Below, piece by piece: positions 18,301-53,968 of a stretch of DNA of 64,000 nt. The notes below the pieces were generated by a model. It did no database searches and was not told where the DNA came from. It was given only the letters and a program-made list of their open reading frames with translations. The DNA is from Phorcus lineatus. Lineage: Eukaryota > Mollusca > Gastropoda > Trochida > Trochidae. Numbering within the stretch: the stretch's first letter is position 1; every line of letters starts with the position of its first letter. The stretch lies in NCBI GenBank assembly GCA_921293015.1, contig OV121089.1, positions 38,612,520 through 38,676,519 on the forward strand. Reading direction: 5' to 3'. The translations under genes were made by a program, and so were the position numbers.

Positions 18301-21300
18301 TCATAGCCTGTGTCATATTCATATTTTCTAGTAACAATGTCCTATATATAAAATGTAACACTATTTAAGATATTTAAGATATAATGACTACATAATTAGC
18401 TCAGTCTTTTATACACTTTGTAATTCGCACTAACATAACATAGTTACTATTTGATAGTTGTTACGTAATGTTGATACTGCGTTTACAATAGAGTTTTGAA
18501 GATTAATGATCTTTAGCGATGTTATTATCGCTCTTAAATAACCAAAACAATATGCAGAATAAAACTTCATATCCTTATATATCAAGGTCCAAATTTTTGT
18601 TAAAGTTTTTACTTAGATTTCCCAAATATCGTCAATTTTGTATATCAAAATATATCCTTTACATATCAAGGCCAAAATAGTTATTACAGTTTTCATACAT
18701 TTCCCAAATACCATCAATTTAGAAAATCAATCCCCTTTATATATCAAGGCAAATTCTTTTATTAAATCTTTGATGAATTTCGAAATTACATCATTTGTTG
18801 GTATCTTTTCGTATATATCAGTGTTCATATTATTCTTATGTTATATTAAATCTGCAGGTGCCTTTCTCATCCCGTACATCATCATGTTGGTGTTTGGAGG
18901 TCTACCCTTGTTCTACATGGAGCTGGCACTGGGTCAGTTTCAGAGGTGTGGCTGTCTCACTGTATGGAAGAGAATCTGTCCCTGTTTTAAAGGTATACCA
19001 CTTTCGTTGCTTCTACAACTTTATTATGTGTTAATCCTTTCCATTAGCGTATTCGACTTTCATTACTACAGACGTATCTGAATAACTACATACAAGAGAA
19101 CTTTCACAACATACATGGTATATACATGATATGATTTCAGGCATTATGTTACGATGTTGTCAAGTCTTTGACTGCCACGTAAGTTCGTGACGTCCAAGAA
19201 CTTATTTTTCAACACACACACACACACACACATATATACAACTTCTGTCTCGATGTGGGAAAACTTGTTCAGTTTGAAACCACATAGGAAGAAGGTTGAT
19301 GCTGAAAACGAAATTATTAGATGTAGTATGACAATGATGAGTTTTCTCGTAGAAATTTGGTAACCACATTGTTAATATGTATGTAGGATATGTAAATGAA
19401 AACTACAATGCATGTAGTGTTTTATTAATGAAAAACAACATCATATCAGTTGGTTCAAGTCACATGCCCTGAGAATACAACAAAGTTTTTTTAGAAGATA
19501 GTAATACATTATTTATTTGATATTTTAAATATTGTGAATTTAACAGCCTGACCGTATCCATATAGAGTAATTGCAAACATAATACACTCAAAAATAGTTG
19601 TGATGTCTCATCGATAATCAAGTGTTTTGTCACATTCATCATTTCAACTTAAAAATGAATGATGAATTGCACAAGAATTTTGTTGAATACAGCTGCATAC
19701 CAAAACTTTGTTCACATACCTGGGTATACTAGTGCAAATATCATGTAATTTTGGATGTCTACGCGATATCGTAGCATTGCGAAAGGAAACGTATAATGTG
19801 GAAGTTTTAGTACAGACATGCCTATCCATTCTTCATTCAAATGTTCATTCAAATGTTTATTATTCCGATCAAATTAGCCGTAACCGTTTTGGCAGGTCAT
19901 TGAAGTGACCAGGGGTCAAAATTTTGAAAACACTAATTTTTTATTTTTCTCTTCAAAATCCTTTATAAGTTATCAACTTCTTTAAAAATTAGTCATGTTT
20001 GTTCCTTGGCACTAGGTCAATGTGATTTTGCTGATTTTATTCTCTGAGAGTCGATTTGGACGATTTTATTCAGAATACAATTTTGTAAATATGACCCCTT
20101 CTGTCTACTTCAATATGCAAAAATTAAAGCAAAAATTCTAATTTTTGCACGAAAGACCAAACGATCCCTAAATAAGTTAAAGAATTGATATGTCTCACAT
20201 GGACAATTAGTGAACCTTTGTCAGTTTTGATGAACTTATATTATTGACGTCCAAATTACATGATATGTGCAGTTCGATTCAGTGGTAAGTGACCAAACTT
20301 TCGGTATGCAGCTTTATTTTGCTGATGGCAAAAGAGCCGCATTCATCGTCAATTATACATCTGTACTTTAAGTAGCATGACGTTAACCCATGAACAAAAT
20401 AAACATTCAATTTGTTTGATTTCGACACTTCAATACTTAAGATAAAATAACCTCCCATAACACATTTTCATCTCACATAATTTACCACTGCAAGTGCTAT
20501 TCTCTTAGTATTAGCATATGTATCTGCTGATTTTGTTCGGCCTTTTTAGAAACAACTTTTGATGTACATTCTCCCATTTTTTACCAAAGATCATTCTGGT
20601 TACCATAATGTTCTTCTTATCGGATATGCTATAATTAATATCATGACTTTGACAAGGTCATGTGGTGAATCTGAGCGAAGAAAGCTAACGGGCCGACCTT
20701 GTAGGCTCATGACTGTCCTGGTCAGACAAATGAATGCTTGATTATACAAAATGAAGCTTAACTCACATCAGATATGCCTCGTATTTGCAATCTGATCCTA
20801 CCAATCAAAATATATTTATGAATTTTCATAGTTCCACAATGAAATATCCATTGACCCTCTGACCAACTTATCGGAAGCACGTCATGCCGGTTCCGGGCCA
20901 GTAGAAGGAGCTTTTATGGAGCCTCGCTTTCGCTGCAAGAAGGCGACCAGTCAGCTTACATCTACACCCTAATGCTCAATTTGTTGCAAGTTCATTTCCG
21001 AACGACAGCCATAACTCAACTTCACCCTATCTCCAAGTTGAATTTTGGAAAAAGGTTGGAAGGAGCGAGTAGTCCTTATCACTCATTAACATTGAAATGT
21101 GAAGAAGTTACAATCGATTGCCATTATCATTCTGCGATAGCCTTATCAGGCAATGCTATTTACCAGGAGAAGTCCCGACTTAATCCGAGTCCGCCGTTTT
21201 GGCTCGGATTGTAATTAACCGGGCTACGGTCGAAGATAGGGGCTTTCATGTGAAATAAAGACTAATGCAGGAATCATAGGACGGATTGCTTTGGCTCAGT

Positions 21301-24300
21301 TAAACAGGGCCGGAGAAGTCGGCTACAGTTTGTTCGATTTTTGACCCATATGCTTAAATTTGTCCAAACAACAACGCCAATGTTTGATAAGTTATTTTGG
21401 CGAATGGCATGAACGTAATTAGCCTGTTCCTGATAGGGCGACTGGTTGGATCGGGCTCAGCTAATGTGTATATAAGTATACTGTTAAGTGTACATAGCTT
21501 ATTCAGTGCGACAAATTGTCGCCTGTCGGGGAAGCCTTTGATGTAACGTCTACAAGAGATCATCGTTCCCCATAAATGTGCAATCGCTTTAAAGAAAAAT
21601 GTTTTGAAACGACCCCCCCCCCACACCCCAAGAACAAAACCCTTTGATCTCTATTCAGTTAAAGATTAAGTTAAAGGCGTTTGTATTGAAAACCCTTTTC
21701 CAATAATAAGATGACGTGACGTATCTCACGGAAAGCGTTAGAGCGAGTCTTTTACAACTTTTGAACATTCAGTGAGCATTTCCTATGTTATTGTTCTTAT
21801 ATATGCCGATTCAAAACTCATTGAATGTTCAAATGGTGTGAGACTGAGAAGGATTTTCTGACACCGAATGTAATACAATGCATATCTATTGACCAACATT
21901 TTGAGTATGACCGATAATCCATGTCAATGCGCTTGGTAGATTCATCTTATTGTCTATGTTTCTGGCAAATAGGTTATGTATGCATATAGTTAATTGTCAT
22001 GTCCAAAATTTACAAAAGTACCGAGTGCCCTTCTTAATAATGACCAAACGTGTGAGATGATTGTTCGCCGATAAACTGGGTTGTGTCAACTCGTATTCAC
22101 GTCATTACGCCCCGTCAACCCCTCTCTTTACTCACTTCCCCGCTCACTTCACTAGATAGAGACTTTCAGAAACCATATCAAGGGGTTATGGCGGTTAGTT
22201 TCTGAAGTTTAGATCTTTTCTGACTGAAGACGTGTAATTCACTTTGATAACTTTATAGAAGCGTAAGAAAAATGATATGGTACACTTTTCATGTTTAAAT
22301 CTAATTTCGTTTGTTTGGTACACAATGTTGTAAATATGGATCCTGCATGATAGCTTGTAAACAAGCACATATCCTTTAGTGCAAGAGTTTGACAACGTCG
22401 ACGATATAGGGAAGTAGGGAAATTTGATGGCTGATGTTTAGTTGGCCCGGATTTTTTGTTCTAAAAACGTGATATACCTATGCCTAAATTGATAGATAAG
22501 AGGTAGCGTATGAAGAGCAGAAATGCTAACTTTATGGATGTGCAGTCCTCTAAATAAAGATATTTCAGAATAGTGTTAGAATGAAACACATCATAATAAA
22601 GAGAGGACCATTGAAACGTCAGCTGTTTAATGATACATAAGTTAAACATCAGCTATTGTGAGGTGGTTGAGGTAACTTGAGTTTTACGACCCTTTCAAGA
22701 GTTTTTTTCAAATTTTTTCATTTGTTTTTTTAAAAACATTTTTTATTTTTGAATCTCCATCAATACAAGTCATTAAAAACAATTCATTTAATAAGAATGT
22801 TACATAAATATGATTCACAAGTACATGCATATACATAATAAATAGGCGGGCAATGATATTATCAAATTGGATAGGAGCAATAAGCAACAGTTGGTAGATA
22901 AGGTAAATCAGAAAAGATTATGGCATATGGACCAAAACTTTGCGAAGTTTTCATACTTGCATTCTGAATAGTAGTCGAAGCGGTCAACATAATATATTGA
23001 TTTGATTTCTTCTTTGATATGTTTGAGACTTGGTCGTTTGTTCCTTTCTTTCATTTAGTATGTGTTATACTTTACGGTTGTAATGATTAGATTTAGGACA
23101 TAATTTCTCTTTTCACAATATCCTAAAATGACATTTTTACCTGTGAAAGTTATTGATACTCCCGTTTTATCTTGTATCCATTTTGATATTGCTTTCCAGA
23201 TTTCTTGAACGAATATACCTTCGTATAACAGATGCAATATTGATTCTGTGTTAGAGCTGCAGAAGGTGCATTTATTTGAATCTTTATATTTTCAAGAGTA
23301 TTCAACTAATATCCCGGCTGCAAGTATTATTGCTGGAAAACGCCCGCAACGTTGATTAAGCTATATATTGCTGTGAAACCTGCGAGCATCGGCTGGAACT
23401 ATAGCGGACTATAAGAGGTGCTGCGCTAATATTCAATGAAGCATTGCACCCAAACCTAACTGAATGTAGAAAAAGTTCTCTACTGCAGACACAGCTATTG
23501 TGAATGAACATGTCAACATGATCCTACTGTAAAGATTTACCTTACTATTTATATCAACTATGGCTTCACCCAGTAACTGCATTGTAGTCATGATATCAGT
23601 ACAAATAATGTTTCAAAGGTTGTTTTTCACGCTTACATATAGACGACGATGCTTTAAACATATTACCCTAACATGTATATTCGAAAATTTATGGAATGAA
23701 AGAAATACAGAGAAAATAGTTTTATCGATTATTGCATTCCTTCTTTCTTTAATTTGACTTACATCAGAGGGGGGCATCCTTTGTTACTGCCCAAGAGCCT
23801 ATGCAATTTTTCATTAATATATGGATGTCAGCTGCCGGTTTGATACATAAACATTAATAATATTTTAATGTTTTACACAATCTAGGCATCTTGGTTAAAA
23901 ACATGTGGCGACTACCTTTCACACTTCCAAAACGTCTTAGTCTTAAAAACATTTTTAGGGGTCATTTAAAAATTACTGAAATTGATTTTGAGAAAATAAA
24001 ATTGTCTGATCATAAATCATAACTTAATGTTTTATGTATTTCCTTGGAATGAAATCAAAGTATCTTGATGTGGACTATATTGTACATAAGAAGACATAAC
24101 AGAGTTTATCAAGGAATGATGTTGTACCCTGGCTTACGTACGTATCAAAGTGTAATCCCTCGATGTTTTCCGTTTGTATTTCTACCAGACTGACATGACG
24201 TCATGATCAGGACAGTGGTCCAAGAAGAGACAAAGCCAGCATTCACTAAAACATTATTTCCGTTAAATAGAATGAATTTGACAAGGCGGATATGGTTGAG

Positions 24301-27300
24301 TAATACACTGACTTACAGGGTCTTTTATATCGACTTTGTTGTAAACCAGGGAATTTTCATAATTGAATAAGAAAACAGTCCTATGTTATTAAGTAACCCT
24401 ATCGTGGTACTATGCATTCAATATTACTGTGTTAATGTAATGATCATAACTTGTCTTTTCAAAAACTATATGCTTTTGAGGTTTAAATTCCTGAATGAAT
24501 TTTTAAAAATTCCAAATAACATGTCTTTTGACGCTCAGCGTGCTTGTTCCGTCTTGTCTCACTGCTGCTGGGAAAGTACCGCTGAATATAACATGACATG
24601 TCCTTTTAGCGTATAGTGTATACGTATACGTATAGTATATAACTTTTCTCTTCAAGCGAAATAAACTCTGACGTCGACCACGGGGACGGTATTTTTCAAA
24701 AACAAAAAACTAATTTCTGATTACTACATATGTGTCTCCAGTGTCAAAAATAACACAAACACAAGAGGTCAACAATTAGTAATGAGTACTCCGGGCGATT
24801 TATTCATGTCGCTTTTGTCCCTTTTAATATTATTGTTCACAACAATACATTTTCAGTTATATTTCCAAATTATTTTTACTTATTGCTATTTCGTATCCAA
24901 ATCCTTGAATGGGAATGGCTGAATCAGTTCTGACATAGTGCGGAAGCTTTGGCTGTTCCCTTCACCAGAGACAGATTGACGGGAGGTTAGGACAGGCGCT
25001 CAATGAGGGACAAAACCAGCGTGAATAATGGCCAAGTTGGATGTGTCAAAATACCCTTCGCATTGTGCCAGGTCAAGCCTGTTGATAAGGCCGAGTGTTT
25101 CCTTGTCGTTAAATCACAATTGTAATTAAACAGCTATGAATATTCATAAGCCCAGTAAATCTGTTACGCAACTGCGACTGTAAATGCGCATCAGCTTCAG
25201 ACGCCGGAGTAAACAAGATGGCGGCTGGAGTAATGTCTTTTATGACCTTCAAGTAGTGGATTGATGTGGATATTGCATTAGGACGTTAATGCGGACAAAC
25301 TTAGATTATATAGAAATTATAGAAAGATGACTCGACTGTTTTCGTTCATTTTTAATCGCATACATTCCAACAAGCAATCTCAACTAATACCATACATTTA
25401 ATGTGTCAAATGTATAAACTAAATATGAATATGAAAATTATCTGGTAAAAATAAGATACTATAAAAATGTCATTCCTTCGAAAGTAACAAGGAAACCTTG
25501 TTCACGCCATGCTGCGTTAATTGATAAGAAGACATCACAAATCACATGAAATTTGCACTAAGATAAACAAAAAGGAGAACAAAACATTCGACACGCCGAT
25601 GTATGCATATCTCCTTGTGTTTCAGGTTTCATTGATGTAGATCACCCCTTTATATTGCAGGCCTAAATGATGTATATCATCCCCTATTGCAGGCACTAAT
25701 GATGTATAACATCCCCTATTGCAGGCACTAATGATGTATAACATCCCCTATTGCAGGCACTAATGATGTATATCATCCCCTATTGCAGGCACTAATGATG
25801 CATATCATCCCCTATTGCAAGCACTAATGATGTAGATCACCCCCTTATATTGCAGGCCTAAATGATGTATATCATCCCCTATTGCAGGCACTAATGATGT
25901 ATATCATTCCCTATTGCAGGCACTAATGATGTATATCATCACATATTGCAAGCACTAAATTAAACGATGTAGATCACCCCCTTATATTGCAGGCCTAAAT
26001 GATGTATATCATCCCCTATTGCAGGCACTAATGATGTATATCATCCCCTATTACAGGCACTAATGATGTATATCATCACATATTGCGGGCACTGATGATG
26101 TATATCATTACCTTTTGTAGGCAATAATCATGTAGATTATCCCTATACAGGCTTTAATGATGCATATCACCAACACATGAAGATATTTATGATGTATTTG
26201 ACTCTTTATTGCAGGCATTCAAAATGTATATCACCTGTATACTACAGACATTATCATAAACACCACCCCCTTTATACTACAGTCATCAATGATGTATATA
26301 ATTTCCTAGTGTTTGCGTTATCAATGCTGTATATATTCCTTTGCATTGCAGGTATCGGCCTTGCCATCTGTGTTATTGCCTTTTTCGTATCTTGGTACTA
26401 CAATACCATCATCGCATGGGCGGTCTACTTCTTCATATACTCGTTCAGGGCCCAGGTGCCCTGGTTAAGCTGTAACAACACATGGAACACCGACAAGTGC
26501 ACGACGTTTGCTGACCGTATTATAAACGAAACGTTATGCTCTGCCAACACCACCACCCTGCACCCTGACTGTGTCGTCAATGACGATGACTGGCCAAGTG
26601 CAGCTTCAACAGAATTTTTCGAGTAAGGAACAAAATGCCTTTTCATCTCTTTATGTTTTGAATCAACAAACAATATCAGCAAATAACTAAACTTACATCT
26701 CACATCATAGCTGATAAATAGCTGAGTTATCGTTGATGTCATAGTTAAATATTGTTCTCAGATTCTTTGAGAAATTTTCCACCAATCCTAAAACTAAGGT
26801 TACGTTACCGAAATGCAACATATTTGAAATCGTTTTCTTTCGTGACGTGGACTGGTCTTTGCTTTGAATGTAACTGAGTTTCTACCTTTGATGTAAAAGA
26901 AGAATCACTTTTTATATAACGGCCTCTTTAATGTGCAAATACATGACGTATCGGAACGTAAGGTTTTTCATTTATCAGACTGAATGTTTTTCCAAGTGCG
27001 TTACCTCTTTTCAAAGTAGACATATAGTTTAATATATGATATTATTTCATTCAGTTGAGATACCATCTTTTCTTTGTATTTCAACTAAGTAACTATCATA
27101 AAACGTGTTGGTCCTGCTATCTTCTACTGTCTCCAAATCCTAACTTGCTTTAAATTGTGGTAATATGATATGAATTCTAAACTGAAACAAAGTTTTAGTT
27201 CCTCTGCTCTCCACCCTATACATGGACGCGTTTCTTTGTGAATATATAACATCCTCTATAAATGCAAAATATTGGCTGACAGGTTGCTAATTGTCATCGA

Positions 27301-30300: not shown

Positions 30301-33300
30301 TCAGGTCCTTTAGACACATTGTTAGTGCAAATAGTATACTTTGATATTGGTTCCAATTGAGTAGGCAAACACAAATCTATTTATGAATTAGAATGGTTTA
30401 AAATTTTGAGCTTTGCCAATTCGTTCATGTTTGCCAAGTCATTGGTTGAATCGACTGTTCTTGTGTCTAAAATGCATTTAGTATTATAATAGTGGTTTTG
30501 TAGTTTACCACGTTATGTGTTAGTTATACATTTCTCCTGATCTTGACTGAACGCCAAATGATGACTGTTTTAGGCCGTATGGATTACAGCTACGCTTCCA
30601 TATATGGTGTTGTTCATCTTGCTGATCCGAGGTTGTACGCTGCCTGGCGCTATGGACGGTATCGCCTACTATCTCAACCCAACCTGGGACAACCTCCTTA
30701 AACTTGAGGTGGGCTTGGATGAATGTCCACATAGACAATGGCGGTCATGTGTGTTGATGATACCTGAAATGTATTGTCAAACGTATACCTGAAATAATAT
30801 CCGAGAAGCTCTTAATCTTCTCATAAAATTCATGAATGTTAATCTATAACAATCACATTATGCAATTTCTTATCACTTTTAGTTGTACGAATATTCAACA
30901 ATTGATATAATATTCAATGTTTTTGCTTTACAGTGAAACTGTTTATAATTAATGAGACTCTAAGACCTTGAACAACTCTTATATGAAGTAATTAGAAATT
31001 ATCGTCTTGGGTGACTTTCCGAATTCTATTTTTAACATGTTCTTTTTACCTGTTATCCCTATGTTTTGAAAGCCAAAGTAACCTATTCAAATGATGTTTA
31101 CATAATTTTATGAAAAAAATAAATATTTGTCCTTCCCGTTACAGGTGTGGATAGACGCTGCCTCTCAGATCTTCTTCTCTCTCGGCCCCGGGTTCGGCGT
31201 GTTGCTTGCTTTGTCTAGTTACAATAAGTTCAACAACAACTGCTACAAGTGGGTATTGAAATGCCCATTTTGAGTCTTGCCAACTGTTATATAGGCCATT
31301 TGTCTATTACCGTTAACATTTGCAAATTATTCTAATCTTATTAACCCTGCTGTAGACTTTTCATTTTTCACATTCTTCACCTTCACAATGTTTGTTCTTT
31401 TTTCCGAAAAAAGCTCTCTTTTTCTTTCGAATATGAATTTATAAAACGGTTATGTAGCAACTAAAAGAAAACCCTTTCCCGAGTGCTATTTTTCTTTCTT
31501 TTTTTATCGTAATACCAATGGGGTTTTACAGACATGTTATCTGTAAGTCGTGATTATAGCCACAAAATAAAGGCCATGATTTTAATGACATTGAAAGATA
31601 AAATATATAAGCTTATAGAGAAGCCCCCCAAAAATAATGATGCCCCTAAGTTTATGTCAACAATGGGTAGATTCGTGTCTTATATTTCAGAGATGCACTG
31701 ATCACTAGTGCTGTCAATTGCTTCACGAGTTTCATGGCCGGGTTTGCAGTGTTCTCAGTGCTGGGGTATATGGCCAAAACGCAGAACAAGCATATAAGTA
31801 AAGTGGCCAGAGCAGGTGCGTGAATCTTCTTATATTCCATCGACTTCTCTCAATAATTTTCTAACTTTAGAATTTGACTTTCCTATTGAATTGACATATG
31901 TTCATTTTGTAACAATTATTAATTGGTTAACCATTTTCACAATGTGTAGATTTACAGTAACTTGGGTTCATAAGAAAACAAAACTATACAAAGGAAGTTC
32001 AACATCCAACACCTAATGAATAGAGGTCATTGAACATAAGCTCTCAATTACCAGTGCTCAGCGTCGATACATTCAATGATGTTCCAGATAAGGTCTGGTC
32101 TCCCCTTCACACACATCATAAATGAAGTAAATAGTACATTAGATTGATGTATAATAAAGTTTAAATTGTTATAGACGTAGGACTCATCTTCATCGTGTAT
32201 CCCGAGGCTATAGCTACAATAGAGGGATCTTCGTTCTGGGCCATCATCTTTTTCTTCATGCTCATCACCCTCGGGCTGGATACCACGGTAAGAATCATTT
32301 CTAGGTCATCTCACATTGACGTACCCGTATCACAACATGTATACCAACAGTGGACTTTAGCATCATATTCTCAAAACCTGGTGTCAAACTCTTGAGATTA
32401 TGAGATATGTCGTTGACTGGGATGTCAGTTTTACCAAAACGATTTCTGAAGAAATCCGAGTGAAATCTTTCACTAACCTTCTCTAATAGCCTTACCTTTA
32501 ACGCTAAAAACCAAAATGATATAAAGGGATGAGATATATAAAATCTATTATGTAATAAATTCAGTAGTCGCCAGTACACAAATACTTCTTTCGTTTTATT
32601 CCATGAGATCTCACGTTTGTTATGTAATAAGATGTTTGTGTTGTGTAATATGATGTTTGTTGTGTAATATGATGTTTGTTTTGGGTAATGTGACGTTTGT
32701 CTTGTGTAATATGATGTTTGCGTTGGGTAATATGATGCATATGTTTGTCTTGTGTGATATGATGTTTGTGTTGGTACAAACCTATATAAGTCGCAAATAG
32801 CTATATTATACTGTCATAATACGAGTGGATTCTTTACAGAATCAATATAGTGAATATCTAGAGTGCTAGCTCCATTCCTTGATTGGTTATCGAACTGTTA
32901 TTGCCCCTTCCATCAGTTCCTTGTGATTTTACAATATATATCCCAGCATGGTAACATACATAGCGTATATATGCGATATGAACGGTATCAATAATTGTAT
33001 GTACCAGTTCGGTGGTCTGGAAGCAATCATCACGGGTATCCTGGACGAGTGGCCCCAGCTGAGGAAGAGGAGGGAACTGTTCGTTGCTGGTCTCATCTCG
33101 CTCTGCTTCTTTGGCGGACTGGCGACAACAACTTACGTACGTTTTGGCTCCGATAACTCAAAAACTGAATGATTAATGAAATATTTACGAAAGTTTGGCG
33201 GTCTTGCAAAATATATAATGTTGCATGTAGACATCAGTGTCACAAACTCGTCAAGGCATTTAGAAGATAATTCTTAATTAATAACAATTTGTAACACATG

Positions 33301-51400: not shown

Positions 51401-53742
51401 ACTATATTCTTCGCAACTTTTATAACTTCATTAATTCCAAATTTGTGCATATTTCATTCTTGAATGTATGAACCTGAATGATATCGTTTGTTGAATGGAA
51501 TGCAACTTTAAATGGATTTCCGGTTTGATGTATACATCTGTTTTATGCATGATTCAGTAAATGTTGTGCATTGTATTCGCAAAGTATTTCATTGAAAATT
51601 AAGTTGATTCTTCATTACCTGTGGTATTATAACTAAGGTATATGACAGATGTTACTTGCAAATGTTATTGTCATGAAATTGGAGAATGGAATGATCGTTT
51701 TTAATGATTACATATACACGTGTGTTTCAGTGTTTGTGTTCTATCAATTTTGCGGTTCCTGATTAATAAGGTAAATGCCCCTATTGTTGTTTTTGTGAAA
51801 TGATTGTTATTTATACAATGACCGTCAAAAGAATGAATAACCGACGTGTATAAAGATGCGGTGTAAGTGATTACAATTATTCATTTTGGCATTGTGCATG
51901 TCGACTGTCATGGTTAATAAGTAGATAACTATATTGTGTAGTTGATAGAACAAGTTGCCAAAGGTTGTTTCAAACTATTCGTTCCTTGAAGTACCGCCCC
52001 TCCCCAAGAAGCGCCAGGCTATATTAAACGCCGAGTCATAGTATTTGTTTAATTGATTAAAGTGTGAATGTCGTACAGCTTAAGTGATTTGTATATGTGG
52101 CTGTTGCAAACTGAATTCATTTAAAATGTATTAAATGAAAAGATTCAAAGATTAAGATTTCTCTGTGATTCCAAAACGAAGCAAGTGTGTATTAAATGTG
52201 TAAACGACTTCTTTATTCTGTATATACGACGTTTCATCAAGGACTCTCACGTCGTTCCCAAACTTGTTTATCCATACAAATCATCGTTCTTCTTCGGCCT
52301 AACTCTACAATTTATTCAACGATATTAACACATCAAGAGGCAGCTTTTCGTTACTTCCCCACTCATCTGGTCAAGGAATAGGAAAAATCCAGAAACTTCA
52401 TGTTTTAAATGATATAGAACTGATATCAAGATATAGGTTGACCAAGTCAATACCTAACAACTTCAGTGTTCGAATCTGTCTTTTCGAAAACTTGAATAAA
52501 TAACATGATGAATAGCTATAAAGAATGTAACACATTATTTTCTGTTTGCTTTGTCTTCAACCCCAATGTTACGATATTATGCGTACACCATTTCAGTTTC
52601 TGCCAAGAAAGAGTGAAAGATACTTTGGAATGTGAAGTAACAACTTTGAAATGATCTTTATGCTTCATATCTATCAATATATCAATTGTTATACATTTTG
52701 AACGATATTTGGAAATAAAATGTATTTTATCTCATTATCCAAGAGCTGTTCAATTAATTAGAATAATTGTTACCGGTTTTAAAGGAACACGTAAATGGAA
52801 GCGAAAGATTTCCACAATTGATTATTGACAACATTTCCTGCACATTGATTTCCTGTGCTGTTGTATGCTGCATTCATGTAAAGTTCACCTTAGTTCTAAT
52901 CAATATTTTTATTTGAAAGGAATAGCGTATTTTTGGCATAAGAACTCCATGAGTTTGATTATTGAGGCTGTCAACCTTGTAGTGTCTCATGAACATCTCA
53001 TTTCAACAACAATATGAATTCCGAATCCCATGTGATATGAGAACAGAATTGATGTTTAACTCTTGTTGTATCAAACGTCAAACAGTTGTCGTGGTAGCAA
53101 ACACGCATTACCATTACTTGAGGGTATTTATTGACATTATTTACGACACCTTCGTCATATCTTTCTTGTTATGTCTATAATTTGGAGGAGACCCGGTATA
53201 TTTGCTTACTGGATTTGTGTTCGCTCATATGTGGTTACTTTTGATAAAACACTTGGATCGCTAATTTCATCTATTTATGTAAAACAATAATTTAATATCT
53301 CTAAAGATGTATTTACTATGTTTATCAAGATATAAAGTTCATGTTACAAATGCACATTACACTATTAGACATTTGTTCCGCTTCTACTCGCCACACGAAC
53401 AAATCTGTTATTTAAATATGATATATAATTCATCGCAGTTTTTAAATAGAAGTTATGTTTCTATGGTAACGAATATTTCCGCAATATTTCGTCGAGGGTC
53501 TAATGCATAATTAGTGACAAGTGGTAGGAGTCGAACAGTTAGTCCAGGAAATATAAAGTTTAAAACGACAATGTTTTGTCATTTACTTGAAAACCAATGA
53601 CATGGTTTTCTGTTAATGTACTTAGTTCTTGTCTAAAATGTCAACTTTGAAATATAGTGCTCAATAAGGAATTCTAAAGAGGTAATTCTAATTAATGACT
53701 AATGTAAAACGTCAGTTTATAGCAAAGAGTTCCTGTATTTGT
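51401..53742. other. Downstream flank, nothing recognised
   Basis: AT-rich sequence; it may include the 3' UTR of the preceding gene. Confidence 0.45.
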
Positions 53743-53968
53743 GTCAATGCATTTAATTATTTATATTGCCCAAAAGTGAAGGAGAATTAAAAGAGTAATA
53801 AATCTTATAGAACAGTTAGGATGTTTCTGGATGTTTATATTTGACCGCTTCATGCATGTCAATGCATTTAATTATTTATATCGCCCATAGGTGAAGGAGA
53901 ATTAAAAGAGTAATAAATCTTATAGAACAGTTAGGATGTTTCTGGATGTTTATATTCGACCGCTTCAT
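53743..53968. repeat. Tandem duplication, two ~115-bp copies
   Basis: GTCAATGCATTTAATTATTT at 53,743 and again at 53,858. The copies run on to GACCGCTTCAT and differ at only a handful of positions, so the duplication is recent. Confidence 0.95.

Follow-up and report, generated by a model that had tools for sequence, protein, structure and literature searches.

The window analysed here, a stretch of 64,000 nucleotides, is part of a eukaryotic assembly of 957.8 Mb in 74 contigs, and carries a gene of the SLC6 family. Three stretches of the window matched the profile PF00209 with 61.6, 77.4 and 37.5 bits, all above its curated cut-off of 27 bits. The part of the gene considered below is made up as follows, with a slash marking the cut at each splice site.

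18,858–18,992, + strand: predicted exon 2 of the SLC6-family gene; acceptor CTGCAG/GTGCC, donor AAAG/GTATAC; the stretch covering it matches PF00209 with E 1.2e-21
18,993–26,351, + strand: intron 2, 7,359 bp, its borders predicted from the sequence and the protein match
26,352–26,622, + strand: predicted exon 3, with a translation ending ...EFF; matches PF00209 with E 7.7e-17; donor CGA/GTAAGG predicted from the sequence

The length of intron 2 follows from the predicted end of exon 2 at 18,992 and start of exon 3 at 26,352, and agrees with the 7.4 kb given in an initial annotation of this DNA. Two further repeats were seen in the window. A second intronic minisatellite of the same gene, unrelated to the array described below, lies at 32,618–32,774 and has periods of 21 and 40 bp, and a tandem duplication of 115 bp, 96% alike, occupies 53,742–53,968.

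The final 726 bp of intron 2 (25,626–26,351) form a tandem array, which alignment divided into 22 units. The steps from unit to unit are 30–41 bp, mostly 32, and the register runs without interruption into the acceptor of exon 3, which is itself the final unit. TRF reported 25,653–26,169 as 15.8 copies of 32 bp, together with a higher-order period of 137 bp repeated 3.5 times. The parts of the array are listed here.

25,611–25,625, + strand: left edge, an acceptor-like stretch CTCCTTGTGTTTCAG directly ahead of the first unit (PWM 9.35)
25,626–26,056, + strand: well-kept part, 13 units, mostly of 32 bp, some of 35 and one of 41; superimposed higher-order period of ~137 bp; consensus GCACTAATGATGTATATCATCCCCTATTGCAG
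26,057–26,317, + strand: decayed part, 8 units agreeing with the consensus at 22–29 of 32 positions, the AG at the unit end kept in 6 of 8
26,318–26,351, + strand: final unit, the true exon 3 acceptor, sharing 24 of 32 positions with the consensus

Scored against the unit consensus, the 38 nt that directly precede exon 3 reached 28; elsewhere in the window, 3,017 YAG-ended stretches scored 25 at most, and 22 of 20,000 shuffles attained 28. Register and similarity thus both reach the exon 3 acceptor, and the fusion of array and acceptor proposed in the initial annotation is borne out. Its description of every unit as a complete 3′ splice site was correct in that a polypyrimidine stretch plus YAG builds the array. 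It was too strong as to every unit, since the AG has been lost in four of the 22, those ending at 25,820, 25,951, 26,088 and 26,317, and is kept in 18, the true acceptor included. The motif TTGCAG, of which at least ten upstream copies had been claimed, occurs 11 times in the array upstream of the real one and nowhere else in intron 2.

The strength of these sites was scored with a weight matrix derived from paralogues (74 distinct exon 3 acceptors), leaving out the gene itself, the array-bearing loci L029, L035, L040 and L046, and two intronless cases. Sixteen of the 25 AGs in the array upstream of the true site matched or exceeded the median paralogue acceptor, compared with two of 326 AGs elsewhere in intron 2. 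Six upstream units exceeded or nearly equalled the true acceptor, with scores of up to 12.2 as against 11.5. The CTAAT of the unit, which had been read as a branch point, fared less well. A YTRAY motif was present upstream in 12 of 22 units and absent upstream of the true exon 3 acceptor; it was no commoner at paralogue acceptors (28 of 76) than at spaced positions in the intron (331 of 915), and the presence of CTAAT in the units therefore proves nothing.

The whole 958-Mb genome was searched for the unit, allowing up to three mismatches. All 11 matches fell inside the window array, on one strand, and the reversed pattern used as a control gave none; a search with the whole array likewise gave a single match, and in the nearest paralogue (L014, at a distance of 34 kb and with 50% identity) the 1.2 kb leading up to exon 3 are free of any array. 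The initial annotation had stated in advance that further genomic occurrences of the unit would make the array an ordinary satellite insertion, and none was found outside the array within three mismatches. Because every match lies in the array, the exon's own acceptor is its natural origin, rather than an inserted dispersed satellite. Introners carry splice sites, and an introner-like mobile element, or a satellite with splice sites, could in principle have inserted beside exon 3. The single location of both unit and array speaks against this, as do the arrays of other genes described below, whose units (21–137 bp) are unrelated to one another and each copied from its own gene, and we regard such an insertion as very improbable. 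The identity of the last unit and the single genomic location together support amplification from the exon's own 3′ splice site, as first proposed, the direction of growth being inferred.

A different reading would make the array a functional splicing element. Its copies would compete for the splicing machinery, so that array length sets how often exon 3 is joined correctly, or in-frame acceptors would add 14–77 residues between TM2 and TM3. The acceptor-like scores of 16 of the 25 upstream AGs are in keeping with this, and an intronic VNTR of human ABCA7 offers a precedent (PMC5954066). Part of the array could also be translated.

26,119–26,351, + strand: stop-free stretch in frame with exon 3, holding the AGs at 26,119, 26,149, 26,281 and 26,308

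Only these four proximal AGs, all in decayed units, would give stop-free in-frame extensions (231, 201, 69 and 42 nt respectively). An open frame of 231 nt in the given frame was found in 0.46% of shuffles and in six of 573 stretches from the rest of intron 2; it was noticed post hoc, and at about 0.5–1% such a frame next to exon 3 is unusual for neutral intron sequence. The alternative exon extensions suggested by the initial annotation are thus allowed at these four sites, but most decoys, including all of those from 26,055 upstream, would introduce stop codons or frameshifts. Selection to preserve the decoys as acceptors was looked for in the eight decayed units and left no sign there: their acceptor scores were no better than expected from neutral decay (P = 0.25 and 0.42). 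We therefore rejected such selection as unsupported. The splicing function proposed earlier likewise lacks support, and a functional element appears unlikely.

To see whether other genes carry arrays of this kind, a protein search with exon 3 was used, which gave 83 places in the genome, the gene itself included. Thirty of these loci were examined with 1.5 kb on each side and 53 with 1.2 kb upstream, 40 of the 53 also with 1.25 kb downstream. Arrays whose unit contains a splice site were present in 12 of these 83 partly examined SLC6 genes, corresponding to 11 independent arrays; nine genes have acceptor arrays and three have donor arrays.

L013: exon 3 acceptor, the window array itself
L029: exon 3 acceptor, 74 bp x 17.9
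L040: exon 3 acceptor, 137 bp x 3.2
L046: exon 3 acceptor, 83 bp x 5.3
L016: exon 2 acceptor, 60 bp x 4.7
L025: exon 2 acceptor, 60 bp x 5.6
L036: exon 2 acceptor, 61 bp x 3.3, followed by a partial unit that is the real acceptor
L078 and L085: exon 2 acceptors, 51 bp x 2, one shared event
L028: exon 4 donor, 45 bp x 5.9
L098: exon 4 donor, 36 bp x 12.3
L134: exon 4 donor, 90 bp x 2.6

The units of different genes are unrelated, and each represents the splice site of its own gene, mostly with exon sequence. The array of L029 (C16:4881134-4884313, minus strand) has 96% matches and repeats the acceptor and exon 3 start of a paralogue. Its ~18 acceptors are nearly identical and GT comes directly after each, so that its units could in principle be removed singly as mini-introns. 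A further locus, L035, has an array of 72 bp x 8.7 that ends 35 nt before the acceptor and was held to be ambiguous. Two SLC6 paralogues on C25, L074 and L079, contain 39-bp arrays of 13.7 and 8.7 copies, whose unit is divisible by three in length and has one open frame.

Splice-site arrays were also found in two of 20 P450 loci (1 kb each, taken from 93 matches).

L140, C11:36577848-36578848: P450 acceptor array, 58 bp x 15.2, the unit holding the acceptor and the start of the exon
L148, C13:45226900-45227900: P450 donor array, 21 bp x 4.0

Exon sequence is part of the unit at the acceptors of L016, L025, L029, L040, L046, L078/L085 and L140 and at the donors of L028, L098, L134 and L148. Among the P450 loci, L143 (C11:20144882-20145882) has a long array that stops 18 nt short of the acceptor. 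In 23 of the 93 P450 matches a single reading frame spans almost the entire profile; many P450 genes thus look intronless, and they lie in clusters on C2, C29 and C39. In a control set of 12 myosin loci, four of 3.3–3.6 kb and eight of 1 kb, no array contained a splice junction; the four arrays of period at least 20 found there (L156, L159, L161 and L163) all lie clear of one. That of L159 (C32), 42 bp x 34.4, ends about 64 nt before an acceptor and does not clearly contain it. Thirteen matches to positions ~237–393 of the myosin head profile, at C2:56.26–57.07 Mb, indicate that genes for muscle-type myosin heavy chains are clustered there in tandem.

Whether arrays are enriched at splice junctions was assessed in the SLC6 stretches, where the junctions of exons 2, 3 and 4 were annotated (exon 3 donors approximately), so that arrays at other exons would be missed. 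Eleven loci (L054, L066, L072, L073, L081, L089, L091, L107, L119, L125 and L126) were left out of both null models, and L013 and L036, in which the TRF interval narrowly misses the junction, and the ambiguous L035 were counted as misses. An annotated junction was held by 11 of 38 arrays, and a null model placing whole intervals expects 9.9–10.9 (P 0.39–0.55). A null model placing the seed unit, with exonic seeds and the doubtful L019 removed, gave 10 of 38 against 3.1 expected (P 0.0004), and nine of 36 against 3.0 (P 0.002) when one of each paralogous pair (L085, L079) was also removed. The verdict thus depends on the null, with no enrichment for whole intervals and a roughly threefold excess for seed units. 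We hold the seed-unit null to be nearer to array growth by duplication; as it was picked after seeing the data, the threefold excess is suggestive only.

The whole-interval result is in keeping with another account, in which the window array would be an ordinary minisatellite that arose by chance, abuts exon 3, and has a unit that happened to include a pyrimidine-AG stretch. Long arrays that stop close to an acceptor but do not clearly include it (L143, 18 nt; L035, 35 nt; L159, ~64 nt) fit the same account. Against it, register and similarity continue into the acceptor itself, the units of L016, L029, L040, L046 and L140 plainly carry a splice junction and exon sequence, and the seed-unit null gives a threefold excess. 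We consider a chance origin quite unlikely. At the other extreme, splice junctions might be preferred birthplaces of tandem arrays in this genome. A sizeable share of genes (12 of the 83 partly examined SLC6 genes) would then have to choose among equally strong copies, and the arrays would act on transporter splicing as modifiers of variable length and keep supplying new exon ends and introns, with the decayed inner units of the window array already supplying in-frame alternative starts of exon 3. This proposal is speculative, and we think it unlikely.

The reading that we consider probable is that the gene's own 3′ splice site was amplified locally in tandem, that the copies are mostly neutral, and that the exon-proximal one is used. 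The minisatellite would have originated where it now lies, when the final ~32 bp of intron 2, which make up the 3′ splice site of exon 3, were duplicated in tandem. Unequal exchange or slippage could then have enlarged the array, and its middle may have been homogenised into the ~137-bp higher-order repeat, leaving the exon-side edge to decay. The working mRNA would most likely be made from the exon-proximal acceptor, with the upstream copies either ignored or giving rise to low-level mis-splicing products that are subsequently lost.

The window array and its recurrence on other genes of the genome raise the question of what still leads the cell to the correct copy. In L046 the real acceptor and all four decoys share a score of 11.3, and decoys equal to or above the real site make up two of two in L040 and 10 of 13 in L140; decoys as strong or stronger also occur in L029. 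Since this is true of the window array as well, local strength cannot mark the exon-proximal copy. The candidate deciding factors are proximity to the exon, exon definition and recursive splicing. Exon definition could account for the choice of the exon-proximal site, and recursive removal of units could also do so where the copies read AG/GT (L029, L040 and L046). Such arrays are a natural test of spliceosome choice, examples being the equal-scoring decoys of L046 and the ~18 near-identical copies of acceptor and exon start in L029. Models in which introns are gained by tandem duplication can also take them as intermediate forms.

A minisatellite in the interferon-induced gene 6-16 (IFI6) is said, by the title of a report by Turri et al. 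1995 cited in PMC2915984, to have multiple splice donors. It would thus supply several splice sites of the same kind, as the window array does, but they are donors. The VNTR in intron 18 of human ABCA7 has a 25-bp unit that starts with a splice donor; its length correlates with skipping of exon 19, and retention of one unit (25 bp) is reported (PMC5954066). It resembles the window array in being intronic and in having a unit that carries a splice site, and the site at the end of the ABCA7 unit is usable (PMC5954066). It differs in that the site is a donor rather than an acceptor, and in that RNA and disease genetics stand behind ABCA7, the window array being known from its DNA. In the Rogers model, discussed in PMC3087553, introns are gained by tandem duplication of AGGT. 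Tandem copies of a splice border would be raw material for introns on this model, and the window array is not seen to have yielded a new one.

A search of the open-licence literature found no report of splice-site arrays in molluscs or annelids, and the parts of PMC12783039, PMC3862624, PMC2206037, PMC4039745 and PMC2812944 that were available contain nothing of this kind. The same search found the papers on amphioxus mirages, which are minisatellite-like tandem copies of intron-exon borders, both acceptors and donors. According to PMC3087553 and PMC3902484, mirages occur in Adh3, the globins BflGb6 and BflGb9, PGBD5 and troponin C. Their units are 10–160 bp long and present in few to many copies, many of them with AG/GT. 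The same papers report RT-PCR and length instability, with regular splicing undisturbed (PMC3087553, PMC3902484). The window array is likewise a tandem repeat at an exon-intron border, running into the exon 3 acceptor, and its units keep their splice signals (18 of 22 AGs; 16 of 25 scores). In typical mirages the unit spans the border, whereas the window unit stops at the AG and consists of intron sequence alone. No exon sequence was detectable in it, the unit starts matching the exon 3 start at 4–7 of 20 positions where about five are expected by chance. The window array is therefore a mirage-like variant rather than a member of the class. The arrays of the other genes mostly fit the description of mirages, as far as their sequence allows this to be judged. 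The host also differs, being amphioxus (a lancelet) for the mirages described and probably a lophotrochozoan here. A myosin exon of this genome was most similar to chain 3i5f, from a squid, and next to scallop chains, and for a ferritin exon the nearest chains came from marine invertebrates, among them Dendrorhynchus zhejiangensis. A search for the GFP family gave no match, a weak hint against a lancelet given that its control gave none either. Mirages have been described gene by gene in lancelets; with 12 of 83 partly examined SLC6 genes and two of 20 P450 loci bearing splice-site arrays, they become countable. If the host is indeed a lophotrochozoan, mirages are not confined to lancelets.
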